A stretch of DNA of 64,000 bases from Bolinopsis microptera (Eukaryota > Ctenophora > Tentaculata > Lobata > Bolinopsidae): positions 17,354,945-17,418,944 of the forward strand of contig NC_087079.1 in NCBI RefSeq assembly GCF_026151205.1, given 5' to 3'. Of this stretch, positions 1,568 through 61,465 are shown in pieces; the stretch's first letter is position 1; every line of letters begins with the position of its first letter. The position numbers were made by a program, and so were the translations under genes. Under the pieces are notes generated by a model that was not told where the DNA came from, did not search any database, and worked only from the letters and a program-made list of their open reading frames with translations.

Positions 1568-4500
1568 CTACATTATAACTACCTGAGTAACTATTCCTGG
1601 AAGGTATATCTCGATAGCATCCCCGACCTTCATGAACAGGTTCATGAACATGATCATCTTATCTTTCCTGGTCCAGATGTTTAAACCTATCAGATTACTC
1701 TTCTCCTCGCTATCATCCTCAGCTTGTTTCGAGCTCTTGCGGGAACTGAAACCTGCTGACTGAGTGACGGGTTTCTCTAGCGTGCGGGAACTGAAACCTG
1801 CTGACTGAGTGACGGGTTCCTCTAGCGTGCGGGAACTGAAACCTGCTGACTGAGTGACGGGTTTCTCTAACGTGCGGGAACTGAAACCTGCTGACTGAGT
1901 GACGGGTTTCTCTAACGTGCGGGAACTGAAACCTGCTGACTGAGTGACGGGTTTCTCTAGCGTGCGGGAACTGAAACCTGCTGACTGAGTGACGGGTTCC
2001 TCTAGCGTGCGGGAACTGAAACCTGCTGACTGAGTGACGGGTTTCTCTAACGTGCGGGAACTGAAACCTGCTGACTGAGTGACGGGTTTCTCTAGCGTGC
2101 GGGAACTGAAACCTGCTGACTGAGTGACGGGTTCCTCTAGCGTGCGGGAACTGAAACCTGCTGACTGAGTGACGGGTTTCTCTAACGTGCGGGAACTGAA
2201 ACCTGCTGACTGAGTGACGGGTTCCTCTAACGTGCGGGAACTGAAACCTGCTGACTGAGTGACGGGTTTCTCTAACGTGCGGGAACTGAAACCTGCTGAC
2301 TGAGTGACGGGTTCCTCTAGCGTGCGGGAACTGAAACCTGCTGACTGAGTGACGGGTTCCTCTAACGTGCAGGAACTGAAACCTGCTGACTGAGTGACGG
2401 GTTCCTCTAACGTGCGGGAACTGAAACCTGCTGACTGAGTGACGGGTTCCTCTAACGTGCGGGAACTGAAACCTGCTGACTGAGTGACGGGTTCCTCTAG
2501 CGTGCGGGAACTGAAACCTGCTGACTGAGTGACGGGTTCCTCTAACGTGCGGGAACTGAAACCTGCTGACTGAGTGACGGGTTCCTCTAACGTGCGGGAA
2601 CTGAAACCTGCTGACTGAGTGACGGGTTCCTCTAACGTGCGGGAACTGAAACCTGCTGACTGAGTGACGGGTTCCTCTAACGTGCGGGAACTGAAACCTG
2701 CTGACTGAGTGACGGGTTCCTCTAACGTGCGGGAACTGAAACCTGCTGACTGAGTGACGGGTTCCTCTAACGTGCGGGAACTGAAACCTGCTGACTGAGT
2801 GACGGGTTCCTCTAACGTGCGGGAACTGAAACCTGCTGACTGAGTGACGGGTTTCTCTAACGTGCGGGAACTGAAACCTGCTGACTGAGTGACGGGTTCC
2901 TCTAGCGTGCGGGAACTGAAACCTGCTGACTGAGTGACGGGTTCCTCTAGCGTGCGGGAACTGAAACCTGCTGACTGAGTGACGGGTTCCTCTAGCGTGC
3001 GGGAACTGAAACCTGCTGACTGAGTGACGGGTTTCTCTAACGTGCGGGAACTGAAACCTGCTGACTGAGTGACGGGTTCCTCTAACGTGCGGGAACTGAA
3101 ACCTGCTGACTGAGTGACGGGTTTCTCTAACGTGCGGGAACTGAAACCTGCTGACTGAGTGACGGGTTCCTCTAACGTGCGGGAACTGAAACCTGCTGAC
3201 TGAGTGACGGGTTCCTCTAACGTGCGGGAACTGAAACCTGCTGACTGAGTGACGGGTTCCTCTAACGTGCGGGAACTGAAACCTGCTGACTGAGTGACGG
3301 GTTCCTCTAACTTGCGGGAACTGAAACCTGCTGACTGAGTGACGGGTTCCTCTAGCGTGCGGGAACTGAAACCTGCTGACTGAGTGACGGGTTCCTCTAA
3401 CGTGCGGGAACTGAAACCTGCTGACTGAGTGACGGGTTCCTCTAACGTGCGGGAACTGAAACCTGCTGACTGAGTGACGGGTTCCTCTAGCGTGCGGGAA
3501 CTGAAACCTGCTGACTGAGTGACGGGTTTCTCTAACGTGCGGGAACTGAAACCTGCTGACTGAGTGACGGGTTCCTCTAACGTGCGGGAACTGAAACCTG
3601 CTGACTGAGTGACGGGTTTCTCTAACGTGCGGGAACTGAAACCTGCTGACTGAGTGACGGGTTCCTCTAACGTGCGGGAACTGAAACCTGCTGACTGAGT
3701 GACGGGTTCCTCTAACGTGCGGGAACTGAAACCTGCTGACTGAGTGACGGGTTCCTCTAACGTGCGGGAACTGAAACCTGCTGACTGAGTGACGGGTTCC
3801 TCTAACGTGCGGGAACTGAAACCTGCTGACTGAGTGACGGGTTCCTCTAACTTGCGGGAACTGAAACCTGCTGACTGAGTGACGGGTTCCTCTAGCGTGC
3901 GGGAACTGAAACCTGCTGACTGAGTGACGGGTTCCTCTAACGTGCGGGAACTGAAACCTGCTGACTGAGTGACGGGTTCCTCTAGCGTGCGGGAACTGAA
4001 ACCTGCTGACTGAGTGACGGGTTTCTCTAACGTGCGGGAACTGAAACCTGCTGACTGAGTGACGGGTTCCTCTAACGTGCGGGAACTGAAACCTGCTGAC
4101 TGAGTGACGGGTTTCTCTAACGTGCGGGAACTGAAACCTGCTGACTGAGTGACGGGTTCCTCTAACGTGCGGGAACTGAAACCTGCTGACTGAGTGACGG
4201 GTTCCTCTAACGTGCGGGAACTGAAACCTGCTGACTGAGTGACGGGTTCCTCTAACGTGCGGGAACTGAAACCTGCTGACTGAGTGACGGGTTCCTCTAA
4301 CGTGCGGGAACTGAAACCTGCTGACTGAGTGACGGGTTTCTCTAACGTGCGGGAACTGAAACCTGCTGACTGAGTGACGGGTTCCTCTAACGTGCGGGAA
4401 CTGAAACCTGCTGACTGAGTGACGGGTTTCTCTAACGTGCGGGAACTGAAACCTGCTGACTGAGTGACGGGTTCCTCTAACGTGCGGGAACTGAAACCTG

Positions 4501-5350
4501 CTGACTGAGTGACGGGTTCCTCTAACGTGCGGGAACTGAAACCTGCTGACTGAGTGACGGGTTCCTCTAACTTGCGGGAACTGAAACCTGCTGACTGAGT
4601 GACGGGTTCCTCTAACGTGCGGGAACTGAAACCTGCTGACTGAGTGACGGGTTCCTCTAACTTGCGGGAACTGAAACCTGCTGACTGAGTGACGGGTTCC
4701 TCTAACGTGCGGGAACTGAAACCTGCTGACTGAGTGACGGGTTCCTCTAACTTGCGGGAACTGAAACCTGCTGACTGAGTGACGGGTTCCTCTAACGTGC
4801 GGGAACTGAAACCTGCTGACTGAGTGACGGGTTCCTCTAACGTGCGGGAACTGAAACCTGCTGACTGAGTGACGGGTTCCTCTAGCGTGCGGGAACTGAA
4901 ACCTGCTGACTGAGTGACGGGTTCCTCTAACGTGCGGGAACTGAAACCTGCTGACTGAGTGACGGGTTCCTCTAACGTGCGGGAACTGAAACCTGCTGAC
5001 TGAGTGACGGGTTCCTCTAGCGTGCGGGAACTGAAACCTGCTGACTGAGTGACGGGTTCCTCTAACGTGCGGGAACTGAAACCTGCTGACTGAGTGACGG
5101 GTTTCTCTAACGTGCGGGAACTGAAACCTGCTGACTGAGTGACGGGTTCCTCTAGCGTGCGGGAACTGAAACCTGCTGACTGAGTGACGGGTTTCTCTAG
5201 CGTGCGGGAACTGAAACCTGCTGACTGAGTGACGGGTTCCTCTAGCGTGCGGGAACTGAAACCTGCTGACTGAGTGACGGGTTCCTCTAACGTGCGGGAA
5301 CTGAAACCTGCTGACTGAGTGACGGGTTCCTCTAACGTACCCTGCGCCAT
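1568..5350 (-). CDS. Unknown protein with about 80 tandem 15-residue repeats (haplotype A allele)
   Basis: Open frame of 1260 codons starting MAQG. It then runs about 80 copies of TLEEPVTQSAGFSSR and a unique tail of about 58 residues (RKSSKQAEDDSEE... to ...IVTQVVIM). I do not recognise the protein. The haplotype B allele (25120-25332) has the same start and tail but only one repeat, so the ancestral product is short. The exon probably ends at CAG/GTAGTT, with its last base near 1583, so the final VVIM-stop is likely intronic. Repeat differences (E/K, T/K, one R/C) are at least as often replacement as silent, which gives no sign of purifying selection. The 45-bp period keeps the frame open by itself. 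It is divergent from HUWE1, whose first visible exon lies about 2 kb away on the plus strand. Expression is uncertain. Confidence 0.55.
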   Translation of the reverse strand: MAQGTLEEPVTQSAGFSSRTLEEPVTQSAGFSSRTLEEPVTQSAGFSSRTLEKPVTQSAGFSSRTLEEPVTQSAGFSSRTLEKPVTQSAGFSSRTLEEPVTQSAGFSSRTLEEPVTQSAGFSSRTLEEPVTQSAGFSSRTLEEPVTQSAGFSSRTLEEPVTQSAGFSSRTLEEPVTQSAGFSSRTLEEPVTQSAGFSSRKLEEPVTQSAGFSSRTLEEPVTQSAGFSSRKLEEPVTQSAGFSSRTLEEPVTQSAGFSSRKLEEPVTQSAGFSSRTLEEPVTQSAGFSSRTLEEPVTQSAGFSSRTLEKPVTQSAGFSSRTLEEPVTQSAGFSSRTLEKPVTQSAGFSSRTLEEPVTQSAGFSSRTLEEPVTQSAGFSSRTLEEPVTQSAGFSSRTLEEPVTQSAGFSSRTLEKPVTQSAGFSSRTLEEPVTQSAGFSSRTLEKPVTQSAGFSSRTLEEPVTQSAGFSSRTLEEPVTQSAGFSSRTLEEPVTQSAGFSSRKLEEPVTQSAGFSSRTLEEPVTQSAGFSSRTLEEPVTQSAGFSSRTLEEPVTQSAGFSSRTLEEPVTQSAGFSSRTLEKPVTQSAGFSSRTLEEPVTQSAGFSSRTLEKPVTQSAGFSSRTLEEPVTQSAGFSSRTLEEPVTQSAGFSSRTLEEPVTQSAGFSSRTLEEPVTQSAGFSSRKLEEPVTQSAGFSSRTLEEPVTQSAGFSSRTLEEPVTQSAGFSSRTLEEPVTQSAGFSSRTLEKPVTQSAGFSSRTLEEPVTQSAGFSSRTLEKPVTQSAGFSSRTLEEPVTQSAGFSSRTLEEPVTQSAGFSSRTLEEPVTQSAGFSSRTLEKPVTQSAGFSSRTLEEPVTQSAGFSSRTLEEPVTQSAGFSSRTLEEPVTQSAGFSSRTLEEPVTQSAGFSSRTLEEPVTQSAGFSSRTLEEPVTQSAGFSSRTLEEPVTQSAGFSSRTLEEPVTQSAGFSSRTLEEPVTQSAGFSSRTLEEPVTQSAGFSSCTLEEPVTQSAGFSSRTLEEPVTQSAGFSSRTLEKPVTQSAGFSSRTLEEPVTQSAGFSSRTLEKPVTQSAGFSSRTLEEPVTQSAGFSSRTLEKPVTQSAGFSSRTLEKPVTQSAGFSSRTLEEPVTQSAGFSSRTLEKPVTQSAGFSSRTLEKPVTQSAGFSSRTLEKPVTQSAGFSSRTLEEPVTQSAGFSSRTLEKPVTQSAGFSSRKSSKQAEDDSEEKSNLIGLNIWTRKDKMIMFMNLFMKVGDAIEIYLPGIVTQVVIM
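1737..5336 (-). repeat. 45-bp coding minisatellite, about 80 copies
   Basis: Uninterrupted 45-bp tandem array with only a few variable positions per unit (ttcctc/tttctc, taacgtgc/tagcgtgc/taacttgc). Variant types recur in blocks (for example around 2281-2400 versus 2820-3000, and the clustered cttgc units at 3301, 3841 and 4561-4741). This points to segmental amplification of multi-unit blocks. Haplotype B has a single unit at about 25276-25320. Confidence 0.95.
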
Positions 5351-37700: not shown

Positions 37701-39420
37701 CAGTTAGATCTTGAGAAAATCGAAAATAACCGCCAGCTTATGTAATGTAATCACAACTTGTTTAAGTTGACTATGAAAACCTTCCCCAGTTTGGCTATGA
37801 TATAATTGATATCTCTAAATAAAATTGGCCTACGTTAAGATTCACCATTGAGCGAGCTACAAAAAATACACAGTACACACTCACATTCCTACCCAGTGCA
37901 CACTATAACTGTTGCCAGATAAAACATTCAATGACTTGCTTTAATTACAATTAATAAACGATGTGCAGACACGTCATGCTAAAATACATATTCCGAAGTA
38001 AGATTAATCCCAGAATAATTTTTAGCAACTTTCAGACACGTTTTCAAACATAATCCAACAGCTACAGACAACTGCTGCAAGGAACTATTTCTTCCAGATG
38101 TAATGAATCGAAATTTAATAGGGTCCTTGTGCATTTTTGTCGTACCATACAGATATGGAAGCTTTCTATTCTCAGACTTGATTTTAATTCCATGAGACTT
38201 GAGGAAGTCTGCATGTCTGAGAATGATTTCAGGATCTTGTTAAGGTTGATATCCTCAACATATTTATTAGTGTACTGAACTACCATGTAATTGTTACTTT
38301 CAGGTTGACTCTTCTTTGACCAAACGTATTTACATCGATACAATTAGTATAATGTAAACAAACAAAACCCCGATTTACCACGAACCCCGATTTACCGCGG
38401 ATGTTTCCTTTCCCCCAAACTCCGCGGTAAATCGGGGTTTTACTGTATTTAAAAAGTTTCGATTCCGCAATAATTTCCGTTCACAAATTAGGTGGGATCA
38501 TGATTCATACATATCAAATTCTGCATACATGTATATATTGATATTGTATAACTCAATCTATAGCATATAATAAGACGGGTGTACTCATCAATTAATTTAG
38601 TTTAAACACTACTTTATTTAGCTCCTTATTATATTTGAAATCCGAATTGAATATTATTTATGAGAGTCAAATTTTTGTTGATCCCACGTTTGATTACGAT
38701 GTTGTCACATTGAAACGTTGAATAATTCCTTTCCTCCTTATTTTATTTTTCATAAATATCTTATCATAAATATCTTATCAGGAGCAAAGAAAAACAGTCC
38801 TGGCTGTCCAAGAACCCTAACAGGGCCGGAACACACAACCAGTGATAGCAGGAAATACAATAAGCAGTGGCGTAACAACAAAAAGAACTAGAGGGATAGA
38901 ACAGGTTACCACTTCCTGTAAAGAAGAAGAATAAAAAACATTCCCCCCATCTCACGTGCAGGCAGATTAAAAATCTTACTGTTATCTATATTTTGAGACC
39001 TCATGTGGCGTGTTTTTCTGCTTTTTATACTTATAATACTAAAGATTCTGCAGTCTTAACTCTTATACTTTTCAAGTAAAAATAATTGACTTCGGTAAAA
39101 TTGTAATATGCCGACTCGCTATAAAGGTTTAAAACATGAGTGATTGTTGGTTGTAAAGTGCTAAGTATTTTTCCTTCTTAAATGGCTATATAAAAAGGCT
39201 TGTTATATTAGCCGGAGTTTAGCAGCTCTGAAACAACCTTATGATAGAGCGCACAAATATAGAGCAGCTGTTATGAACAGTCAACTAATAGCCATTTAAC
39301 GGCCGTGATCATGTCGTTACGATAATACATAATAGCCGTCTCAGCTTTTTTAGCCGGTTAATTAGTTTACCGGCTTACGCAGTGGGAGATTTATAATTCG
39401 CATCGTTTTGTCGTTTTAGA
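37701..39420. other. Interior of the 7.7-kb element without recognised genes
   Basis: AT-rich. A 93-codon minus-strand frame at 38062-38343 (MYRCKYVWSKKSQPE...) has no similarity I can name. A perfect 18-bp inverted repeat (aaccccgatttaccgcgg) sits at 38383-38400 / 38422-38439. Confidence 0.5.
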
Positions 39421-39421
39421 A

Positions 39422-41140
39422 CCTAGAAATAGTGCTCAAAGCTGGCTTTGTGGTTAAGTTTTGTAGTTGGAAAGTGTTTTTAATGTAGAGTACTGGGAGC
39501 TCTGAGGATTTATTATTCGCATCATTTAGCCGTCTCATAACCTAGAAATAGTGCTCAGAGCTGGTTTTGTGGTTGAGTTTTGTAGTTGGAAAGTGTTTTT
39601 AATGTAGAGTACTGGGAGCTCTGAGGATTTATAATTGGCATCATTTAGCCGTCTCATAACCTAGAAATAGTGCTCAGAACTGGTTTTGTGGTTAAGTTTT
39701 GTAGTTGGAAAGTGTTTTTAATGTAGAGTACTGGGAGATCTGAGGATTTATTATTCGCATCATTTAGCCGTCTCATAACCTAGAAATAGTGCTCAGAGCT
39801 GGTTTTGTGGTTAAGTTTTGTAGTTGGAAAGTGTTTTTAATGTAGAGTACTGGGAGCTCTGAGGATTTATTATTCGCATCATTTAGCCGTCTCATAACCT
39901 AGAAATAGTGCTCAGAGCTGGTTTTGTGGTTGAGTTTTGTAGTTGGAAAGTGTTTTAAATGTAGAGTACTGGGAGATCTGAGGATTTATTATTCGCATCA
40001 TTTAGCCGTCTCATAACCTAGAAATAGTGCTCAGAGCTGGTTTTGTGGTTAAGTTTTGTAGTTGGAAAGTGTTTTAAATGTAGAGTACTGGGAGCTCTGA
40101 GGATTTATTATTCGCATCATTTAGCCGTCTCATAACCTAGAAATAGTGCTCAGAGCTGGTTTTGTGGTTAAGTTTTGTAGTTGGAAAGTGTTTTAAATGT
40201 AGAGTACTGGGAGATCTGAGGATTTATTATTCGCATCATTTAGCCGTCTCATAACCTAGAAATAGTGCTCAGAGCTGGTTTTGTGGTTGAGTTTTGTAGT
40301 TGGAAAGTGTTTTTAATGTAGAGTACTGGGAGCTCTGAGGATTTATAATTGGCATCATTTAGCCGTCTCATAACCTAGACATAGTGCTCAGAGCTGGTTT
40401 TGTGGTTAAGTTTTGTAGTTGGAAAGTGTTTTTAATGTAGAGTACTGGGAGATCTGAGGATTTATTATTCGCATCATTTAGCCGTCTCATAACCTAGAAA
40501 TAGTGCTCAGAGCTGGTTTTGTGGTTAAGTTTTGTAGTTGGAAAGTGTTTTTAATGTAGAGTACTGGGAGCTCTGAGGATTTATTATTCGCATCATTTAG
40601 CCGTCTCATAACCTAGAAATAGTGCTCAGAGCTGGTTTTGTGGTTAAGTTTTGTAGTTGGAAAGTGTTTTAAATGTAGAGTACTGGGAGATCTGAGGATT
40701 TATTATTCGCATCATTTAGCCGTCTCATAACCTAGAAATAGTGCTCAGAGCTGGTTTTGTGGTTAAGTTTTGTAGTTGGAAAGTGTTTTTAATGTAGAGT
40801 ACTGGGAGCTCTGAGGATTTATAATTGGCATCATTTAGCCGTCTCATAACCTAGAAATAGTGCTCAGAGCTGGTTTTGTGGTTGAGTTTTGTAGTTGGAA
40901 AGTGTTTTTAATGTAGAGTACTGGGAGCTCTGAGGATTTATAATTGGCATCATTTAGCCGTCTCATAACCTAGAAATAGTGCTCAGAGCTGGTTTTGTGG
41001 TTAAGTTTTGTAGTTGGAAAGTGTTTTTAATGTAGAGTACTGGGAGCTCTGAGGATTTATTATTCGCATCATTTAGCCGTCTCATAACCTAGAAATGGTG
41101 CTCAAAGCTGGTTTAGTGGTTAATTTTTGTAGTTGGAAAG
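39422..41140. repeat. 119-bp tandem satellite, about 14.5 copies
   Basis: Highly uniform 119-bp units (core cctagaaatagtgctcagag). Alternating variants (ggagctctg / ggagatctg; tattattcgc / tataattggc) suggest higher-order duplication. Located near the right end of the 7.7-kb element. Confidence 0.95.
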
Positions 41141-41809
41141 TGTTTTTAATGTCCATGTCGTGTTCGGTGTTTTATAACTCCCGACATGGCTGCACAACAG
41201 TCTCCCTTAAGAACACTTTCCACTGTTAATGCAAATTATCATTTACGATCGTTGTTCTACCAATCTGCCTTAATAAATTTGTTCATGAATTCATACACTG
41301 TAAGTGTAGACTGTATTATTAGTGCCGTACATTTGATTAGCAATTTACTGGGCATGCGACTTAATTGTGTCATGATGTTGATAGTTGCCAAATTTCGGTA
41401 ACAAATTAGGACTTAATTTGAGTTTACTGCACGCGCGATGAATAATTTGTGTTTATAGAGATCTGCGGCGCGTTATGAGGTTAACCAGTGAAATCACGGC
41501 GTTTTCGTCACGTGACAGTCGAGTGTAGAGTGATTAATTATCATCCTGTTACTCGTCTAAATTTCTTCGAAGTAGCGCGCGTTGCTTTCTTCTTGGCCCG
41601 ATGGCAAGTGCTACGAAGTAGCGCGCGCCGGGCCTGATCATTAACAATGGTCATCAAAGTCACGTAATAATTTTTGGGCGAGCGAATTAGTAAGAACCGC
41701 CTGGGGTTTTCCAGTTATGAGGTAACAGGTAAACGGCGGGCGCACGCCACTGCAAGTGCAAGGGCCTTGTTTAAAGACAAGTTTATTTTTTACATTGCTT
41801 GCTTTTCGT

Positions 41810-51798: not shown

Positions 51799-51859
51799 AC
51801 TTTAAGTAGAAGGGAATGTATGAAGGCCCGCCATCAAGTGACTCCCAGCCACTCACAGC

Positions 51860-52140
51860 ACGCCCCCAGGTCACGTGACAGCACGTCACGTGACGGATCA
51901 CATGTCATGTAACCACGTGACAAGCTCGTCAATCAAATGTCAAGGTCACGTGACATTTGATTGACCAATGAGGAGCCAGAACGTCATGACGAATCAATCA
52001 ATAATCCCGACTAAAGGATCTAAAGTCTGATTAAACGGTTGCCAAGCAGGTTCCTGTTATTTGATTACCGGGCACGTGTTTAGCTTAAGCATCATGTGAC
52101 ATGAATGTTATTGAACCTCGAGATCACGTGACAGGAGTCA
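51860..52140. promoter_or_regulatory. Cluster of TCACGTGA E-box palindromes in the left arm
   Basis: ggtcacgtgaca, cgtcacgtgacg, accacgtgac, ggtcacgtgaca and gatcacgtgaca lie within about 280 bp, with a ccaat motif at about 51965. They are mirrored at about 58920-59200 in the right arm. CACGTG is the bHLH core, and TCACGTGA is the extended TFE/MITF-type site. Function is inference. Confidence 0.5.
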
Positions 52141-52445
52141 CTTGATTACCCGTCAGAACGTCATGATGAATAATTCAATAATCCTGTCTAAAGGATCTAA
52201 AGTCAGATTAAACGGTTGCCAAGCAGGTTCCTGTTATTTGATTACTGGTCAAATGATTCTTCACGATTTACCCCGGTCCAGTCACCACTCCAAATAAGCA
52301 GAGGGTGACATAACGAAATGTGGTGTAGGGTTACCATCGCTCGACCTCCTGGAAATTACAAGTCTTATCATCAATTTTCTGACATTTAAGCAATAGCTAC
52401 AGTATCTGAACCACATTTTCACCCTTTAAGATATAACAACTGTTA

Positions 52446-52513
52446 GGTAGCCTAGTGGTTAGAACATCCGTCTTCTGCACAAAAGGTTCAGGGTTCAAAG
52501 TCGAGTCTAGGGA
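52446..52513 (+). repeat. tRNA-like sequence in the left arm
   Basis: A-box-like tagcctagtggttagaac and B-box-like ggttcagggttcaaagtc at tRNA spacing. The arms do not fold well and the acceptor ends do not pair, so this is a tRNA-derived SINE head or pseudo-tRNA. Inverted copy at 58543-58610. Confidence 0.55.
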
Positions 52514-52737
52514 GTAGCTAAGGCTCCATACCATTCACTATTATTAACTATTAAATTTGCTTGTTATAAATTTGATAAATTTCGAGAGACAAATAAAACT
52601 ACCGTTTAATTGATAATTTGTTGTTGTCAACATTATAATCATAAATTGAAATCATCAAGAGTAAGATTGGGTACATGAATCATTGTATAACAGTTGCACG
52701 TTAATGGTGTTCTAGTACAGGTAGTTAGTTCCACCAA

Positions 52738-53452
52738 CTACTTATTCAGATAAAGTTTGAGAATCTTATCGACAATAGTTGTGTTTTCGTTCATCAGTTT
52801 GTTTACATCAGATAGACTTGTAGTGGTGATAACTGCATCCAATAGAGATCGTTCTTCCAAACTTAAAATATCTGTTAGGTCTTCTCCGCTGTCAATTAAA
52901 CGCTGCTTCAAGACAACAAACAATTCGGTTTTCATCATGTATGAGAATAAAATGTCAAAACATTTATTTTGCTCTTTACACAATTTACTTTGTAACAGGA
53001 CGTCTAGAGATTTAAGTAAACTCGATATCTTTTTACTGTTTGGTTGTTTGATTGGTACTCCTTTCCGCTTGCCTACGTGTTGCCAGTCAGTATCAGATTC
53101 TAACTCTTTAGCATTATATTCTTTGTTGGACTCATCATCGCTACTTGTTACACCACTAAATTCATCATCACCACTACCTGGTACATCAGAGTTAGAACCA
53201 CCTTGCTGAGATTCTTCAGAAACTATTGTATCAGCATCTGAACATACAGAATCAGGACCCTCCATTTTGACATCAGTCACATCTGAGTTAGCTTTTGACA
53301 GCGGCAGTAAAATTGCAGAACTTTCATCTGACTCTCGCGAGAGTCAGATGAAAGTTCTCTCGGTTCTCTCGATGATACCTACTAATGTGTGAGGACAGAC
53401 TATATTTATTGGCAAAAGACTTGTCACAGAATGAGCAGGTTACAGAATTCAT
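52738..53452 (-). pseudogene. C2H2 zinc-finger gene of the palindromic element, left copy (frameshifted)
   Basis: Same gene as 57628-58317 on the opposite strand. Its start (MNSVTCSFCDKSFANKY) lies at 53452 leftwards and the 3' part (from MTDVKMEGPD, 53280 to 52738) is open. Between them a 25-bp insertion near 53318-53360 forms a perfect local palindrome (agaactttcatctgactctcg and its complement), shifts the frame and creates an early stop. The change looks like a local foldback replication slip. Confidence 0.85.
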
Positions 53453-53504
53453 AACTGCAGTACAAACGTTTTATAATGCTATGCAACAACCATTATATAG
53501 CAAT

Positions 53505-53790
53505 AATCGCATAAAATCGCAAATAATCGCAAATAATCGCATATAATCGCATATAATAGCATATAATAGCATATAATGGCATAAAATTGCAAATAATCGC
53601 ATATAATTGCAAAATAATTCCACAAAATAGCATATAATAGCATATAATCGCATATAATCGCATATAATAGCATATAATAGCATATAATCACATTTAATCA
53701 CATATATAATCACGTATATTATCTCTTAAAATCACATTTTATTATTTATACTCGCAAATAATTGCATATAATTGCAAATAATCGCATATA
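53505..53790. repeat. 10-bp helically phased AT repeats, left arm block 1
   Basis: Units of the type atataatcgc / atataatagc at about 10-bp spacing. Similar blocks are at 54337-54445, 55800-56180, 56640-56762 and 57320-57590. The frames YAIICDYMLL read through them are an artefact of the period. Confidence 0.85.
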
Positions 53791-54152
53791 GTAGCAGGGT
53801 GAATATGATCCAACTTACGCATTCAACCTATTAAAGATCTTTTCAAAGATTTATTTTCATGCTGATTGCCAAGCATCATCCTGGAGATGGAACTGTAACT
53901 CTTGAGTCTACCAAAGACTGCACCCAACATGTAGGAATACTTCCTAGTGGGGACATTAAAGGACCACACCAGACAGGACAAGGAGATCATGGTAAATTCT
54001 ACGTCAACTAGTCAGACGGAGATCATCTTCGAGATCTATCACTTTCTGGATTATCATTCATAACCAGTAGTCAGCGCACCATTGATTTCTGCTTTCAAAT
54101 GATAACTGCTAATACTCTTGTCGATTTTATTGCACAGAAACCAGCATTTGAC

Positions 54153-54212
54153 CGGGACCGGGACCGGGAATAGCTCAAAATTGTCAATCCCGGTACCGGG
54201 AATCCCGGTCGA
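54153..54212. repeat. GGGACC / CCGGTACCGGG short palindromic repeats
   Basis: Three cgggac units, then after a short spacer tcccggtaccgggaatcccgg, giving a strong stem. Mirrored at 56888-56962 in the right arm. Confidence 0.7.
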
Positions 54213-54699
54213 TTACTGGTGCATGCAGCTGGCCAGGTTTAGGTATCAGGTGATTTTTCCTGCAATTTGGTAGTTGTGAAACATCACCTTGGATTTCTGT
54301 TGTCACAAAACGTACCTTTTTAGACCTTTTCTCAAAGCATATAATAGCATATAATAGCATATAATCGCATATAATAGCATATAATAGCATATAATAGCAT
54401 ATAATAGCATATAATAGCATATAATCGCATATAATCGCATGTAATATCATTCGAGATCACATATATAATCCATTGGGTGGGCGAAAATTGTCCCCCGACA
54501 ATTGACCCCCCGATAATTGACCCCTCGACAATTGACCCCTCGACAATTGACCCCCCCGACAATGTAACTCAATACAACATCACCTCATACCATACTCCTC
54601 ACGGTTCTCTTGATATAGGAAGAATGCACCTTTGTTGTGGTGTGCCACACTCCACATGAATAGATTCTTGGAAAATTCAGATGCTCTCCCCATAGCTAG

Positions 54700-54777
54700 T
54701 GGCACAGACGGGAATCGAACCCGGGACCCTGTGAATGCGAGACATTTCACAAGCAGGCAGACTAAAGAACTGTGCCA
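54700..54777 (-). repeat. tRNA-like sequence in the loop
   Basis: On the minus strand a 7-bp acceptor stem pairs perfectly (tggcaca / tgtgcca), and a T-arm with loop ttcgatt sits in gggttcgattccc. The anticodon region is an abnormal long hairpin (tgtga..tcaca), so it is a tRNA-derived SINE or pseudo-tRNA, not a functional tRNA. Confidence 0.55.
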
Positions 54778-54949
54778 CATAGCCATTTATAACTATAATG
54801 TATTATTTTAAACTGACAAGCTCGTAAATGAAATGTCAAGGTTACGTGACAAGTTAATTGACCAATAAGAAGCAAGTACGTTATAATAGCAACCGTCACG
54901 TGATATTCGTAACGATCTTGTTAAACATGTTCATATTTTCATTTTAACA

Positions 54950-55050
54950 GCGGTCCATCTGGAGCCTCAGGTTAGTGAGTTAACGGCAACTTTCCTATGC
55001 AGGACAATGCGGGTTCAAATCCCGCCTAGCCTACTTCTCCAGATGGATCG
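54950..55050 (+). repeat. Hairpin with tRNA-type T-arm in the loop
   Basis: A perfect T-arm gcggg-ttcaaat-cccgc lies inside a larger stem formed by agcggtccatctgga and tccagatggatcgct. The rest does not fold as a tRNA. Confidence 0.45.
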
Positions 55051-55154
55051 CTCTTTTAAAACATTTAATTTTATCTATTTAAACGTAACGACCATTGGTA
55101 TTCATTTAAATGCGATTATAAAATATTATATGCTATTATATGCGATTATATGAA

Positions 55155-55770
55155 TATACTAGTGTAACCCGGCCTTCGGCCGGGATTTCACTGCCGCAGT
55201 TAAAAAGGGTAGGATAATTCACCCGTTGAGTCAAAACCTGCATTAGGTGAGCAATTCTATTCGGAGTGCCCTCACGTATCCAATGGTATCTTAAACAATA
55301 GTAATAGTATCTTAAACAATAATCAATAGAAATCAACCCTTAACACCACACCCGCCTATCATATTTGTGAACACGCATAACATTGTCGTATGAAAGTATG
55401 AACTCTCTCTCTGCAGTCCAAACAGTGCCCCCTCCCCTAATAAGATTATAAGATTATAGTATAGACAGCGAATCTTACACGGGTAACTCAATTACACTAA
55501 TTATGCAGCTACATATGCGAGCCCCGTAACTCTTACCGTTGTGCTCAAGCCATTTTATGTAACATTTATGGTACAAAATCATCAATTAAACCACTTACCA
55601 ACGACCGATTTAAAAAACCTTTATCATTTAACTTCGTCAGAGTTTTGTCGGCACTTTACCGAAAAAATCAGTCCCGCAACTCTTACCGTTTTCTTGATTA
55701 AGCCGCTCGGAAATTACAAACAGACAGACAGACAGACAGAAAACACACATTCTGGGATTATTAGTTAGAT
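55155..55770 (+). mobile_element. Dispersed retroposon (about 0.6 kb) in the loop
   Basis: Starts near tactagtgtaacccggc with the hairpin cccggcc-ttc-ggccggg. It ends with ttaagccgctcggaaatt, an (acag)n tail and ggattattag. The 3' end recurs in the zinc-finger gene intron (45955-46040), which supports a SINE or truncated LINE family. Internal repeat of ccgtaactcttaccgtt / cccgcaactcttaccgtt. Confidence 0.6.
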
Positions 55771-55799
55771 GTTGGAGATGGAACTATAACTCTTGAGTC

Positions 55800-56180
55800 T
55801 ACCGAATGCGATTATATATGCTATTATATGCTATTATAAGCTATCATATGCGATTATATGATATTATATAATGCTATTATATGCGATTATATGATATTAT
55901 ATGCTATTATATGCAATTATATGCTGGCGATTGAACTGTAATTCTTGAGTCTCTCTATATGATATTATATAATGCTATTATATGCGATTATATGATATTA
56001 TATGCTATTATATGTGCAATTATATGCTGGCGATTGAACTGTAATTCTTGAGTCTCCGAATGCGATTGTATGTTATTATTATATGCTATTATATGCAATT
56101 ATATGCTATTATATGCTATTATATGCTATTATATGCTATTATATGATATTATATGATATTATATGCTATTATTTGCGATT
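55800..56180. repeat. 10-bp AT repeats in the loop
   Basis: tatatgctat / tatatgcgat units, including two copies of a larger ~90-bp segment with ctggcgattgaactgtaa. Confidence 0.85.
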
Positions 56181-56185
56181 ATTTT

Positions 56186-56350
56186 CAGTATTCATTCAGT
56201 ATTCATTCAGTATTCATTCAGTATTCATTCAGTATTCATTCAGTATTCATTCAGTATTCATTCAGTATTCATTCAGTATTCATTCAGTATTCATTCAGTA
56301 TCCATTCAGTATTCATTTAGTATTCATTCAGTATTCATTCAGTATTCGGC
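56186..56350. repeat. 11-bp tandem repeat (tattcattcag), about 15 copies
   Basis: Near-perfect 11-bp units bordering the right arm. Confidence 0.9.
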
Positions 56351-57627
56351 ATTTATTCAGTATTTAGCGGATTTGTTCATGTGGAGTGTGGCACATCACA
56401 ACAAAAGTACCTCCTTTCTAGATAAAGAGTATCGTGAGATTTGTCCATGTGGAGTGCGGCACACCACAACAAAGGTGCATTCTTCCTAGATCAAGAGAAC
56501 CGTGAGGAGTATGGTATGAGGTGATGTTGTATTGAGTTACATTGTCGGGGGGGGGGGGGGGGTCAATTGTCGAGGGGTCAATTATCGAGGGGTCAATTAT
56601 CGGGGGACAATTTTCGCCCACCCAATGGATTATATATGTGATCGAATGATATTACATGCGATTATATGCGATTATATGCTATTATATGCTATTATATGCT
56701 ATTATATGCTATTATATGCTATTATATGCGATTATATGCTATTATATGCTATTATATGCTTTGAGAAAAGGTCTAAAAAGGTACGTTTTGTGACAACAGA
56801 AATCCAAGGTGATGTTTCACAACTACCAAATTGCAGGAAAAATCACCTGATACCTAAACCTGGCCAGCTGCATGCACCAGTAATCGACCGGGATTCCCGG
56901 TACCGGGGATCCCGGTACCGGGATTGACAATTTTGAGCTATTCCCGGTCCCGGTCCCGGTCAAATGCTGGTTTCTGTGCAATAAAATCGACAAGAGTATT
57001 AGCAGTTATCATTTGAAAGCAGAAATCAATGGTGCGCTGACTACTGGTTATGAATGATAATCCAGAAAGTGATAGATCTCGAAGATGATCTCCGTCTGAC
57101 TAGTTGACGTAGAATTTACCATGATCTCCTTGTCCTGTCTGGTGTGGTCCTTTAATGTCCCCACTAGGAAGTATTCCTACATGTTGGGTGCAGTCTTTGG
57201 TAGACTCAAGAGTTACAGTTCCATCTCCAGGATGATGCTTGGCAATCAGCATGAAAATAAATCTTTGAAAAGATCTTTAATAGGTTGAATGCGTAAGTTG
57301 GATCATATTCACCCTGCTACTATATGCGATTATTTGCAATTATATGCAATTATTTGCGAGTATAAATAATAAAATGTGATTTTAAGAGATAATATACGTG
57401 ATTATATATGTGATTAAATATATATAATTATATTATTATCGATTATATGCGATTATATGCTATTATATGCTATTTTGTGGAATTATTTTGCAATTATATG
57501 CGATTATTTGCAATTTTATGCCATTATATGCTATTATATGCGATTATATGCGATTATTTGCGATTTTATGCGATTATTGCTATATAATGGTTGTTGCATA
57601 GCATTATAAAACGTTTGTACTGCAGTT

Positions 57628-58317
57628 ATGAATTCTGTAACCTGCTCATTCTGTGACAAGTCTTTTGCCAATAAATATAGTCTGTCCTCACACATTAGTA
57701 GGTATCATCGAGAGAACCGAGAGTCAGATGAAAGTTCTGCAATTTTACTGCCGCTGTCAAAAGCTAACTCAGATGTGACTGATGTCAAAATGGAGGGTCC
57801 TGATTCTGTATGTTCAGATGCTGATACAATAGTTTCTGAAGAATCTCAGCAAGGTGGTTCTAACTCTGATGTACCAGGTAGTGGTGATGATGAATTTAGT
57901 GGTGTAACAAGTAGCGATGATGAGTCCAACAAAGAATATAATGCTAAAGAGTTAGAATCTGATACTGACTGGCAACACGTAGGCAAGCGGAAAGGAGTAC
58001 CAATCAAACAACCAAACAGTAAAAAGATATCGAGTTTACTTAAATCTCTAGACGTCCTGTTACAAAGTAAATTGTGTAAAGAGCAAAATAAATGTTTTGA
58101 CATTTTATTCTCATACATGATGAAAACCGAATTGTTTGTTGTCTTGAAGCAGCGTTTAATTGACAGCGGAGAAGACCTAACAGATATTTTAAGTTTGGAA
58201 GAACGATCTCTATTGGATGCAGTTATCACCACTACAAGTCTATCTGATGTAAACAAACTGATGAACGAAAACACAACTATTGTCGATAAGATTCTCAAAC
58301 TTTATCTGAATAAGTAG
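57628..58317 (+). CDS. C2H2 zinc-finger protein of the palindromic element (right copy, intact)
   Basis: 229-residue ORF. The N-terminal C2H2 finger is CSFCDKSFANKYSLSSHISRYH (residues about 6-27), with C2, a hydrophobic core and H-x4-H. A serine- and acid-rich linker follows (about 45-115), then a short basic segment (GKRKGVPIKQPNSKK), and a predicted all-helical C-terminal domain of about 95 residues (LLKSLDVLLQSKLCKE ... VDKILKLYLNK). A TATA-like ctatataatgg lies about 37 bp upstream of the ATG, and an acceptor-like ctgcag is immediately before it. I do not recognise the family. It could be an element-encoded DNA-binding protein or a captured host gene. The left-arm copy is broken. Confidence 0.75.
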   Translation: MNSVTCSFCDKSFANKYSLSSHISRYHRENRESDESSAILLPLSKANSDVTDVKMEGPDSVCSDADTIVSEESQQGGSNSDVPGSGDDEFSGVTSSDDESNKEYNAKELESDTDWQHVGKRKGVPIKQPNSKKISSLLKSLDVLLQSKLCKEQNKCFDILFSYMMKTELFVVLKQRLIDSGEDLTDILSLEERSLLDAVITTTSLSDVNKLMNENTTIVDKILKLYLNK

Positions 58318-58542
58318 TTGGTGGAACTAACTACCTGTACTAGAACACCATTAACGTGCAACTGTTATACAATGATTCATGTACCCAATCTTACTCTTGA
58401 TGATTTCAATTTATGATTATAATGTTGACAACAACAAATTATCAATTAAACGGTAGTTTTATTTGTCTCTCGAAATTTATCAAATTTATAACAAGCAAAT
58501 TTAATAGTTAATAATAGTGAATGGTATGGAGCCTTAGCTACT

Positions 58543-58610
58543 CCCTAGACTCGACTTTGAACCCTGAACCTTTTGTGCAGAAGACGGATGTTCTAACCAC
58601 TAGGCTACCT
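58543..58610 (-). repeat. tRNA-like sequence in the right arm
   Basis: Inverted copy of 52446-52513. Confidence 0.55.
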
Positions 58611-59354
58611 AACAGTTGTTATATCTTAAAGGGTGAAAATGTGGTTCAGATACTGTAGCTATTGCTTAAATGTCAGAAAATTGATGATAAGACTTGTAAT
58701 TTCCAGGAGGTCGAGCGATGGTAACCCTACACCACATTTCGTTATGTCACCCTCTGCTTATTTGGAGTGGTGACTGGACCGGGGTAAATCGTGAAGAATC
58801 ATTTGACCAGTAATCAAATAACAGGAACCTGCTTGGCAACCGTTTAATCTGACTTTAGATCCTTTAGACAGGATTATTGAATTATTCATCATGACGTTCT
58901 GACGGGTAATCAAGTGACTCCTGTCACGTGATCTCGAGGTTCAATAACATTCATGTCACATGATGCTTAAGCTAAACACGTGCCCGGTAATCAAATAACA
59001 GGAACCTGCTTGGCAACCGTTTAATCAGACTTTAGATCCTTTAGTCGGGATTATTGATTGATTCGTCATGACGTTCTGGCTCCTCATTGGTCAATCAAAT
59101 GTCACGTGACCTTGACATTTGATTGACGAGCTTGTCACGTGGTTACATGACATGTGATCTGTCACGTGACGTGCTGTCACGTGACCTGGGGGCGTGCTGT
59201 GAGTGGCTGGGAGTCACTTGATGGCGGGCCTTCATACATTCCCTTCTACTACTTTATTTGACAGAATATTCCGTAGCAGGATGTGACTAGCCTAACAAAT
59301 ATCAAATCTCGAGTATAATATCTACAAGCGATGCTAAGAGTGTGAAGTGCAGAT

Positions 59355-61465
59355 ATGTGGTCAATGCTGAGTAACGCGGCGTACAGTACGCTAAACAACA
59401 CAGTACTGTACACCACCCTTACTTACAATGTGGGTGCTTGGGCGCTCACTAGTCGGAATTGGTACGTTACCTTGGTTATCTTAGTTACCTTAGTTACCTT
59501 GGTAATCTTGGTTACCTTGGTTACCTTGGTAATCTTGGTTACCTTGGTAATCTTGGTTACCTTGGTAATCTTGGTTACCTTGGTTACATTGGTTACCTTG
59601 GTAATCTTAGTTACCTTAGTTACCTTAGTTACCTTGGTTACCTTGGTTACCTTGGTTACCTTTACACAACACTGTGTATTGATCATCATTACTGATCTTA
59701 TTACGGTGATATTTTGTCGATCAAATAGTTCCTCGAATATTTTCCTGGCAATTATTTGTTATTAAATAACTGTAGTCAATAAATTAATCAATCAATCCTA
59801 AAGTTATCTCTCAGGTACAATTACATAGACAGTCACGTGATTTTGGGTGCTCTTCCTTTCTCATTTCTAAAAGAGAAGCTTGTACAGGAGGAAAATGTCG
59901 GGGCGATTATTTCTCTCAATATGCCGTGAGTTTTTATTGAAATTAAATGGTACGACACAATTGACATCATTACCAGTATAAAAAAACTTGATCAAACGGT
60001 CTGACGATTTTAAGAGTCCGTATCTTTTGTGTCAAGAAGAGAACAGTTCATAGATATTGAAGATTTAACTATTTTTATATTTTTTTGACAGATGTGAATT
60101 TTCCATTTGAGCCTCTTTGCTATTTGCTCACCAATTCTTTAGAAATTTGCTGACACCTGTACTTCCCTTCCAATAGTCATGAATTCTGACTTTGATCTGT
60201 CAGGGTTCGCATCATGTTAGGTACCCTCTCTGGAGGTACCCTCTCTGGAGGTACCCTCTCTGGAGGTACCCTCTCTGGAGGTACCCTCTCTGGAGGAACC
60301 CTCTCTGGAGGTACCCTCTCTGGAGGTACCCTCTCTGGAGGTACCCTCTCTGGAGGTACCCTCTCTGGAGGAACCCTCTCTGGAGGTACCCTCTCTGGAG
60401 GTACCCTCTCTGGAGGTACCCTCTCTGGAGGTACCCTCTCTGGAGGTACCCTCTCTGGAGGTACCCTCTCTGGAGGTACCCTCTCTGGAGGTACCCTCTC
60501 TGGAGGTACCCTCTCTGGAGGTACCCTCTCTGGAGGTACCCTCTCTGGAGGTACCCTCTCTGGAGGTACCCTCTCTGGAGGTACCCTCTCTGGAGGTACC
60601 CTCTCTGGAGGTACCCTCTCTGGAGGTACCCTCTCTGGAGGTACCCTCTCTGGAGGTACCCTCTCTGGAGGTACCCTCTCTGGAGGTACCCTCTCTGGAG
60701 GTACTGTTATATGTTTTATTCAACCAGATCATTAAGTTAATTAACAATAAACTAAATGTAGGTACGAGCGTCAGTACGTGACTACACCGACAGAAGAATG
60801 GCAGGAACTGGGCGTGGAGCACTTTAAAATAGATATCCCCGATTTCATATCAACTCCCACTGTCAGTCAAATGTGGGAGGTAAATGGCTGAATGGTACTA
60901 CTTCTTTAATTATTTTACTCCCGCACAGTGTGCCTGTCCGTCAATTGGCAGAGATTTTTATTATTTCTCACTGATATGTGTTTCTGCAAATCGAAATCGG
61001 AATGCAAATGTATACGAAATCAATCAGCTGACTGTTTGTTAGCGGCTAACATTCTATCAAGAGAATTATTGCAGGGAATTGAGCTGATAAAAGCTAAGGC
61101 GGAGCTAGGACAGAGAACATATGTTCATTGTAAAGCAGGGAGGAGCAGAAGTGCTACAATGGTTACAGCCTACGTCATGCAGAAGTAAGTCGCCGGTGAA
61201 TATCTCCGGATATGGGGGCCCACTGTCTGTGGTTCTGCAGTCTCATTACAAACACTCAGTGTAACAGGAAATGTAATTGATATCCCTCTTTGTGATATGA
61301 CACTATCTCCTAACATTGTATCCCAGGTATGGTAAGACAGTGGAGGAGGGAGTTAAGTTTGTCACTGAGAAACGACCTCACGTTAAGTACACTGAGCTAC
61401 AGTTGCAAACATTACACGACTTTGCGAACACTTTATCACCGCCACCAAACGGTGACCCTCAGTGA
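59355..61465 (+). CDS. PTPMT1: PTPMT1-like mitochondrial protein-tyrosine phosphatase
   Basis: Five exons in phase: 59355-59461, 59815-59925, 60762-60879, 61075-61184, 61327-61465 (TGA); 194 residues, against 201 in human. The hydrophobic, hydroxyl-rich N-terminus fits a mitochondrial targeting region. The family landmarks follow: SRNWYNYI, VILGALPF, NVGAIISLNMPYE, EEWQELGVEHF, and the catalytic P-loop VHCKAGRSRSATMV (Cys and Arg of CX5R in exon 4). PTPMT1 dephosphorylates phosphatidylglycerophosphate to phosphatidylglycerol in cardiolipin synthesis at the inner mitochondrial membrane. The start is the first ATG of exon 1, just right of the palindromic element (about 100 bp away), so any promoter must be close to or overlap that insertion. 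Introns 1 and 2 are filled with short satellites. Confidence 0.93.
59465..59662. repeat. 9-bp satellite (ttaccttgg) in PTPMT1 intron 1
   Basis: About 22 units of ttaccttgg / taatcttgg / ttaccttag starting at the splice donor itself (59462). It gives reading-frame artefacts on both strands. Confidence 0.95.
60220..60703. repeat. 15-bp satellite (ggtaccctctctgga) in PTPMT1 intron 2, about 32 copies
   Basis: Very uniform; two units read ggaaccc. Each unit has a KpnI site (ggtacc). All frames are open because 15 is a multiple of three, but the array lies between exons 2 and 3. Confidence 0.95.

Follow-up and report, generated by a model that had tools for sequence, protein, structure and literature searches.

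A palindromic, zinc-finger-encoding relative of Polinton/Maverick elements in the genome of the ctenophore Bolinopsis microptera

The closest described relatives of the element reported here, a 7.4-kb palindrome inserted at positions 51805-59250 of a 64,000-nucleotide (nt) stretch of Bolinopsis microptera DNA (NC_087079.1, positions 17,354,945 to 17,418,944; the whole stretch is called the window), are the Polintons or Mavericks. Vertebrate Mavericks, as presented in passages of PMC8097293, have target-site duplications (TSDs) of 6 bp, 5'-(AGT)2//(ACT)2-3' ends and, in intact elements, terminal inverted repeats (TIRs) of 46-1447 bp. Polintons are also described in PMC6431247 and PMC2836005, in whose relevant passages palindromic derivatives do not appear. 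Among open-licence PMC papers, judged by title and start of abstract, none on non-autonomous, foldback or palindromic Polintons was found, and a prior description, e.g., in Repbase reports, may exist. The foldback-like transposons Galileo and Tm1, as far as the excerpts describing them go, resemble the window element in having inverted repeats that are very long and repetitive inside. Drosophila FB is likewise a foldback-like transposon, and the FB/Galileo superfamilies have TSDs of lengths other than 6 bp, whereas the TIR and TSD of the window element are those of Polintons. A deletion derivative of the kalilo plasmid reportedly forms hairpin DNA. In snapback (copy-back) defective genomes of adeno-associated virus (AAV), according to the abstract of PMC8235507, one terminus stands at both ends around a fold and a helper is required; the elements treated here share the first property and would share the second, but they are integrated, multicopy and inherited, and copy-back is suggested by their anatomy. 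We regard the window element as probably a non-autonomous palindromic derivative of Polinton/Maverick elements that arose by copy-back and is mobilised by Polintons in trans. The first-pass annotation had called it the window's best candidate for a new system, a term that is too strong for a derivative of a known kind.

The window element, a copy of the family designated F1, consists of two 2.8-kb inverted arms (left, 51805-54658, + strand; right, 56446-59250, - strand) around a loop of 1.8 kb (54659-56445). The inverted alignment of the arms spans 2869 columns at 96.9% identity and contains 9 mismatches and 13 gap openings. The termini are AGTAGAAGGGAATG on either side (the right one as its complement), so that the ends read AGTAGA../..TCTACT, and a perfect 6-bp TSD, ACTTTA, flanks the element at 51799-51804 and 59251-59256. 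The first-pass description of inverted arms, TSD and AGT-type ends at this place is thereby borne out, as is its remark that no core gene lies inside: 19 open reading frames (ORFs) of a core-bearing Polinton (below) and the zinc-finger (ZF) protein of the element were searched against it by tblastn at E 1e-3, and the ZF protein alone matched. A Polinton with its own core genes was thus ruled out, and the element is classed as a non-autonomous derivative rather than a Polinton proper. F1 agrees with Polinton/Maverick in its 6-bp TSD, its AGT../..ACT ends and a TIR in common with a core-bearing element. It differs in showing no match to any of the core genes (those for integrase, ATPase, protease, capsids and PolB), in ends that are one base off (AGT)2 (other ZF families have AGTAGT../..ACTACT), in arms of 2.8 kb compared with the TIR range given in the passages of PMC8097293, and in the position of its protein gene within the inverted repeat.

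Two longer pairs of ends in the genome share the F1 ends, one 18.4 kb apart (C1:8045654-8064101, read as L029/L030) and one 12 kb apart (C7:16159956-16172003). The 18.4-kb element has the TSD ATGGGT and a TIR of 540 bp at 99.6% identity, and its ORFs give Pfam matches, all under the curated cut-offs, to rve (3.5e-5), an AAA_14/FtsK/Pox_A32-type ATPase (0.0013-0.034), C48 protease (0.016) and DNA_pol_B_2 (3e-4); further ORFs are presumably capsid-like. The 9 kb read of the 12-kb element is 98.8-99.7% identical to it and carries ORFs of the core type, so that longer relatives encoding polymerase B, an integrase or an ATPase, which had been suggested for search, do exist. The outer arms of F1 match the TIR of the 18.4-kb Polinton at 88.7-96% over 453-533 columns in 5/5 copies compared; in the window copy the homologous parts are 51805-52245 (+; element positions 1-441 against L029 201-651, 90.3%) and 58810-59250 (-; 90.5%). 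Because this outer sequence is homologous to the TIR of a core-bearing Polinton, F1 is taken as a non-autonomous Polinton derivative, an origin that is well supported and that upholds the Polinton/Maverick likeness already seen in the TSD and termini. Genome searches with pieces of L029/L030 gave 32 match rows for the integrase and 37 for the ATPase; some rows are pieces of one gene, and Polinton-type elements with these genes are accordingly numerous. Near opposite ends of the 18.4-kb element lie two paralogous ORFs (L029 1393-2052, -; L030 7758-8303, +) of 23% identity; each is read towards the outside, and the arrangement resembles an inverted duplication that has diverged.

The genome searched comprises 264.65 Mb in 232 contigs. 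A 2.3-kb piece of the right arm gave 184 DNA matches, the long ones being mostly inverted pairs among the matches listed. The F1 end pattern (up to 3 mismatches) was found 26+26 times, compared with 3+3 for a reversed-pattern control, and resolved into 20 pairs 5.6-9.6 kb apart, the two longer pairs and 8 singles; by paired ends the copy number of F1 is about 20. Since the palindromic structure recurs across copies, it is not due to chance. The TSD is perfect in 16 of the 17 copies read at both ends and matches at 5/6 positions in the remaining one (L021, L025 and L027, with an end outside the piece or more than 5 mismatches, and L028, with one end seen, were left out of this count). No target-site consensus was seen among the 17. 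Joined flanks were searched and the best candidates scored, which yielded empty sites for 4/17 copies: 20 listed places (98-99% identity) run across the L010 junction with no insert and 8 places (99-100%) across that of L016, and L009 and L014 are inserted in tandem arrays whose other units represent the empty site. For the remaining 13/17 no empty site was listed in this search, which scores best candidates only. With further copies and empty sites both at hand, the window element is mobile, as had been proposed.

The ZF protein of 229 amino acids (aa) is encoded intact in the right arm (57628-58317, +). It has a single C2H2 finger at aa 5-27 (PF00096, E 1e-4, under the curated cut-off), followed by an acidic linker and a conserved C-terminal region without a recognised domain. 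The first-pass annotation had placed this protein in both arms. Gene sequence is indeed present in each, and the frame is intact in the right arm only: in the left-arm copy (52738-53452, -) a 25-nt insertion disrupts the frame and gives rise to a perfect 42-bp palindrome (53317-53358), present in this arm alone among the 34 F1 arms searched. Across those 34 arms the 229-codon frame is free of stops in 30. The ratio of nonsynonymous to synonymous substitution rates (dN/dS) between F1 and relatives in three other sets of palindromic elements is 0.35-0.47, with Fisher p from 7.9e-4 to 5.8e-8 over nine between-family pairs (the right arm of L013, with 11 stops, was left out), and these sequence comparisons indicate that the gene is under selection. 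The F1 element was also compared at the DNA level with L033, L034 and L035, and all matches listed (the five best of each pair, at least 60 nt) fall inside the ORF. Together with the arm comparisons below, these results agree with the earlier suggestion of a conserved gene and arm-to-arm equalisation. Within F1, the window copy and L020, which belong to different subfamilies, differ in the ZF gene by 24 nonsynonymous and 3 synonymous changes, clustered by eye in the C-terminal half; positive selection between subfamilies was considered and is not significant (Fisher p 0.23). The ZF copy in the L013 right arm is 50% identical and has 11 stops, and the alignment of that arm has 81 gap openings, which points to decay or a low-quality assembly stretch.

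The suggested assembly search with the protein reported relatives at 133 genome places, fragments counted. A PDB profile search returned 8 sequences at E 0.08-0.93, fingers first, with nothing convincing for the C-terminal region, so that the profile search proposed for that domain gave no lead. PHROGs gave one match (E 0.033), to a model named endonuclease, over aa 2-41 only, and a search for relatives in viral contigs gave 158 pattern matches, 0 of them confirmed.

Beyond the first reading, and outside the coordinates of the window element, there are other palindromes that carry the ZF gene, an element that combines PolB with a distantly related ZF gene, and a palindrome resembling an inverted dimer with PolB in both arms. 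Three more sets of palindromic elements, whose ends read AGTAGT..ACTACT, encode a conserved ZF protein. L033 (C21:62595-68713, TSD AATTTG) and L034 (TSD CGTAGG) are palindromic with the common ends AGTAGTGTAAGAGG; the two long pairs of this end type (C4:8557351-8578534 and C11:10825957-10838131) have no integrase or ATPase match inside, and so no core-bearing partner was found for it. L035 (C9:11008525-11017595) has the TSD CATCTC, and arms of 99.7% identity, and the sequence that separates the arms contains an ORF with 38% identity to a Polinton ORF; a relative of the two paralogous ORFs of L029/L030 lies in its centre. At C11:10504900 there is an end of the L035 type (2 mismatches), and matches to integrase (C11:10497524) and ATPase (C11:10498062) are found at a distance of about 6-7 kb.

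The element at C9:2276551-2285161 is an 8.6-kb Polinton-type element with the TSD GTAGAC, a 162-bp TIR at 100% identity and AGTAGT..ACTACT ends. It holds a long PolB frame and, near its right end and reading outward, one distant ZF relative (about 31%) with an intron apparent by eye. The long PolB ORF was matched in a genome-wide DNA_pol_B_2 search at 5.8e-11 and by the PolB pieces of L030 at 28-37% (tblastn); a Pfam scan of the ORF at E 0.05 listed Endonuclease_7 and a C2HC finger and not DNA_pol_B_2. As tblastn of the Polinton ORFs against this element found PolB pieces and the ZF relative only, it may also need a helper. C9-type ends with a ZF relative near one end occur also, by genome matches, at C7:1344454-1353446, C3:11680502-11688675 and C3:8636913-8645649, and a PF03175 match is listed for 2/4 of these C9-type elements. 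From the centre outward, the C9 element and the right arm of F1 have the same order and orientation of microsatellite, upstream block, outward-reading ZF gene and end. In the window the upstream block is a 98-bp sequence (57089-57186, +) that is 79.8% identical to the one upstream of the distant ZF relative (L036 2167-2255); none of the 14 other loci compared matched it at E 1e-3. Between this block and the ORF lies a 10-bp ATATAATNGC-type microsatellite (57300-57590, boundaries approximate and set by eye), which is mirrored in the left arm.

Polymerase genes are themselves found in inverted pairs. The 20 PF03175 matches in the genome include three inverted pairs of open 1261-aa frames that read outward; a fourth inverted pair, on C8, is broken and reads inward. 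At C7:6690411-6705670 there is a 15.3-kb palindrome with the TSD TACTTG, ends AGTAGTATGT.. and PolB pieces mirrored on both sides. It was read in pieces, with two stretches of about 2.6 kb lying between them; the outer arms are 99.8% identical over the 1291 columns read, and the centre (L044) is 99.0% identical to its own reverse over 7499 columns, with no loop and, by eye, a C/G-rich inverted repeat at the axis. The pieces that match the C9 PolB element are colinear with it over an interval that starts 511 nt in from the left end of that element and reaches the C-terminus of its PolB, and the ends of the two are alike by eye. Judged by its sequence, the palindrome looks like an inverted dimer of a C9-type PolB element produced by copy-back near one terminus. 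Its axis region (L044 ~2967-4502) also shares a module of about 730 bp, 96-98% identical, with the arms of the L033 element (L033/L040).

The arms of F1 resemble their partners more than they resemble the arms of other copies. The partner is the nearest neighbour of 28/30 arms (15 copies; the damaged arms L012_R and L013_R were dropped and their partners then went unscored, leaving 30 of 34 arms), which argues that arms are homogenised. The median arm difference is 0.12% within and 2.85% between copies, with a between-copy minimum of 0.71%, and within-copy differences are at most 0.53% in 14/15 pairs. The first ~500 nt of the window loop match 14/16 other F1 copies; because the loop is common to most copies, a single palindromic ancestor gave rise to most of them, and equalisation of the arms must therefore have followed the divergence of the copies. 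Resetting of the arms at each replication is the simplest account.

On the reading that we prefer, F1 would be integrated in trans by the integrase of Polintons, as the shared ends suggest, and copied as extrachromosomal linear DNA by Polinton PolB in a protein-primed reaction. Every round of copying would rewrite one arm from the other, by fold-back or panhandle formation of the displaced strand, so that arms would be reset at transposition and then drift. The palindromic shape would come from copy-back (snapback) synthesis, by which one end of an asymmetric parent is put at both ends, as happens in the snapback genomes that other linear DNA replicons form. The ZF gene would be a gene of the element rather than host cargo, and its product would serve the element, with end binding, replication, integration and transcription or anti-silencing as candidate roles.

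Several observations weigh against this reading. No parent was found in which the F1 TIR and a single copy of the ZF gene occur together, and a ZF match at E 1 is absent from the 18.4-kb Polinton, so that the copy-back origin suggested for F1 rests on analogy with the PolB palindrome. The Pfam matches of that Polinton, though consistent, are weak. The ZF gene of the L035 family reads inward, not outward. L024 (C4:2663809-2671144), which accounts for both nearest-neighbour misses, has arms from two subfamilies, 4.9% apart, which could reflect inter-copy recombination or template switching; L012 and L013 each have one damaged arm, and equal arms are thus not universal. In two of the 16 other copies (L022 and L023) the match to the window loop is confined to its second half, which is rich in repeats. 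Finally, gene conversion by the host, once an element has inserted, could make its arms equal as well.

This last point can be extended to a long-TIR element in which gene conversion by the host, acting at the insertion site, keeps the arms alike, and whose palindromic shape came from recombination (an inverted duplication at a break) and not from replication. Other superfamilies include foldback-type elements with long TIRs (Galileo and Tm1), the 25-nt insertion of the window left arm is absent from the right arm, and the arms of L024 are unlike. The TIR, however, belongs to a Polinton with PolB, partner arms are at most 0.53% apart in 14/15 pairs compared with at least 0.71% between copies, and the loopless PolB palindrome together with palindromes in several families points to a recurrent outcome of replication; we therefore consider this explanation unlikely, though it has some standing. 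False inverted repeats assembled from hairpin or chimeric long reads could be suspected from the 81 gap openings between the L013 right arm and its partner and from the 2675 N in L028. The TSDs that bound 17 copies on the outside, the non-palindromic loops that most copies have in common, the differences seen between arms and the presence of empty sites at other places largely contradict such an artefact, which is extremely improbable.

With respect to the ZF gene, capture from the host and carriage as cargo would fit the frequency of C2H2 fingers in host proteins and the apparent intron, seen by eye, in the relative beside PolB. Yet among the 133 matches, whose surroundings were partly inspected, the only candidates for host genes are the weakest, finger-only ones (e.g., C6:18863391), and a ZF relative adjoins PolB in an element with a 6-bp TSD and Polinton ends, so that we find host capture improbable. 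That same two-gene element, and the retention of the gene where core genes are lacking, might suggest that the ZF protein is the terminal protein that primes PolB. In passages of PMC11071308 the terminal protein of Polintons is assigned to the N-terminal portion of pPolB, and we give the proposal very little credence.

The loop contains a tRNA-like sequence at 54969-55033 (+; Rfam RF00005, 37.2 bits, gathering score 29) and a second tRNA-like stretch at 54697-54776 (-) below the Rfam gathering score; ARAGORN found no tRNA there. Host sequence of the window includes large minisatellite arrays at 1738-5338, 39388-41152 and 60219-60704, with periods of 45, 119 and 15.

Protein-primed replication of Polintons is deduced mainly from their genes. 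Palindromic Polinton relatives with a gene in both halves give a hint at how such elements copy their DNA, and a small ZF protein that is kept across families and has a distant relative beside PolB is a candidate accessory factor. We tentatively put forward, as a possibility rather than an expectation, that Polintons here repeatedly yield copy-back palindromes, from loopless inverted dimers carrying PolB on either side to satellites with ZF only; that the ZF protein is the minimal element-encoded factor for satellite replication and integration; and that PolB+ZF elements and ZF-only palindromes form a nuclear helper/satellite system. Inverted dimers and end-duplicated satellites are the expected leftovers of fold-back errors and hence may be a genomic record of protein-primed replication, and a datable one: if the proposal is true, the divergence between arms would date the last replication of a copy as the divergence of long terminal repeats does for retrotransposons.

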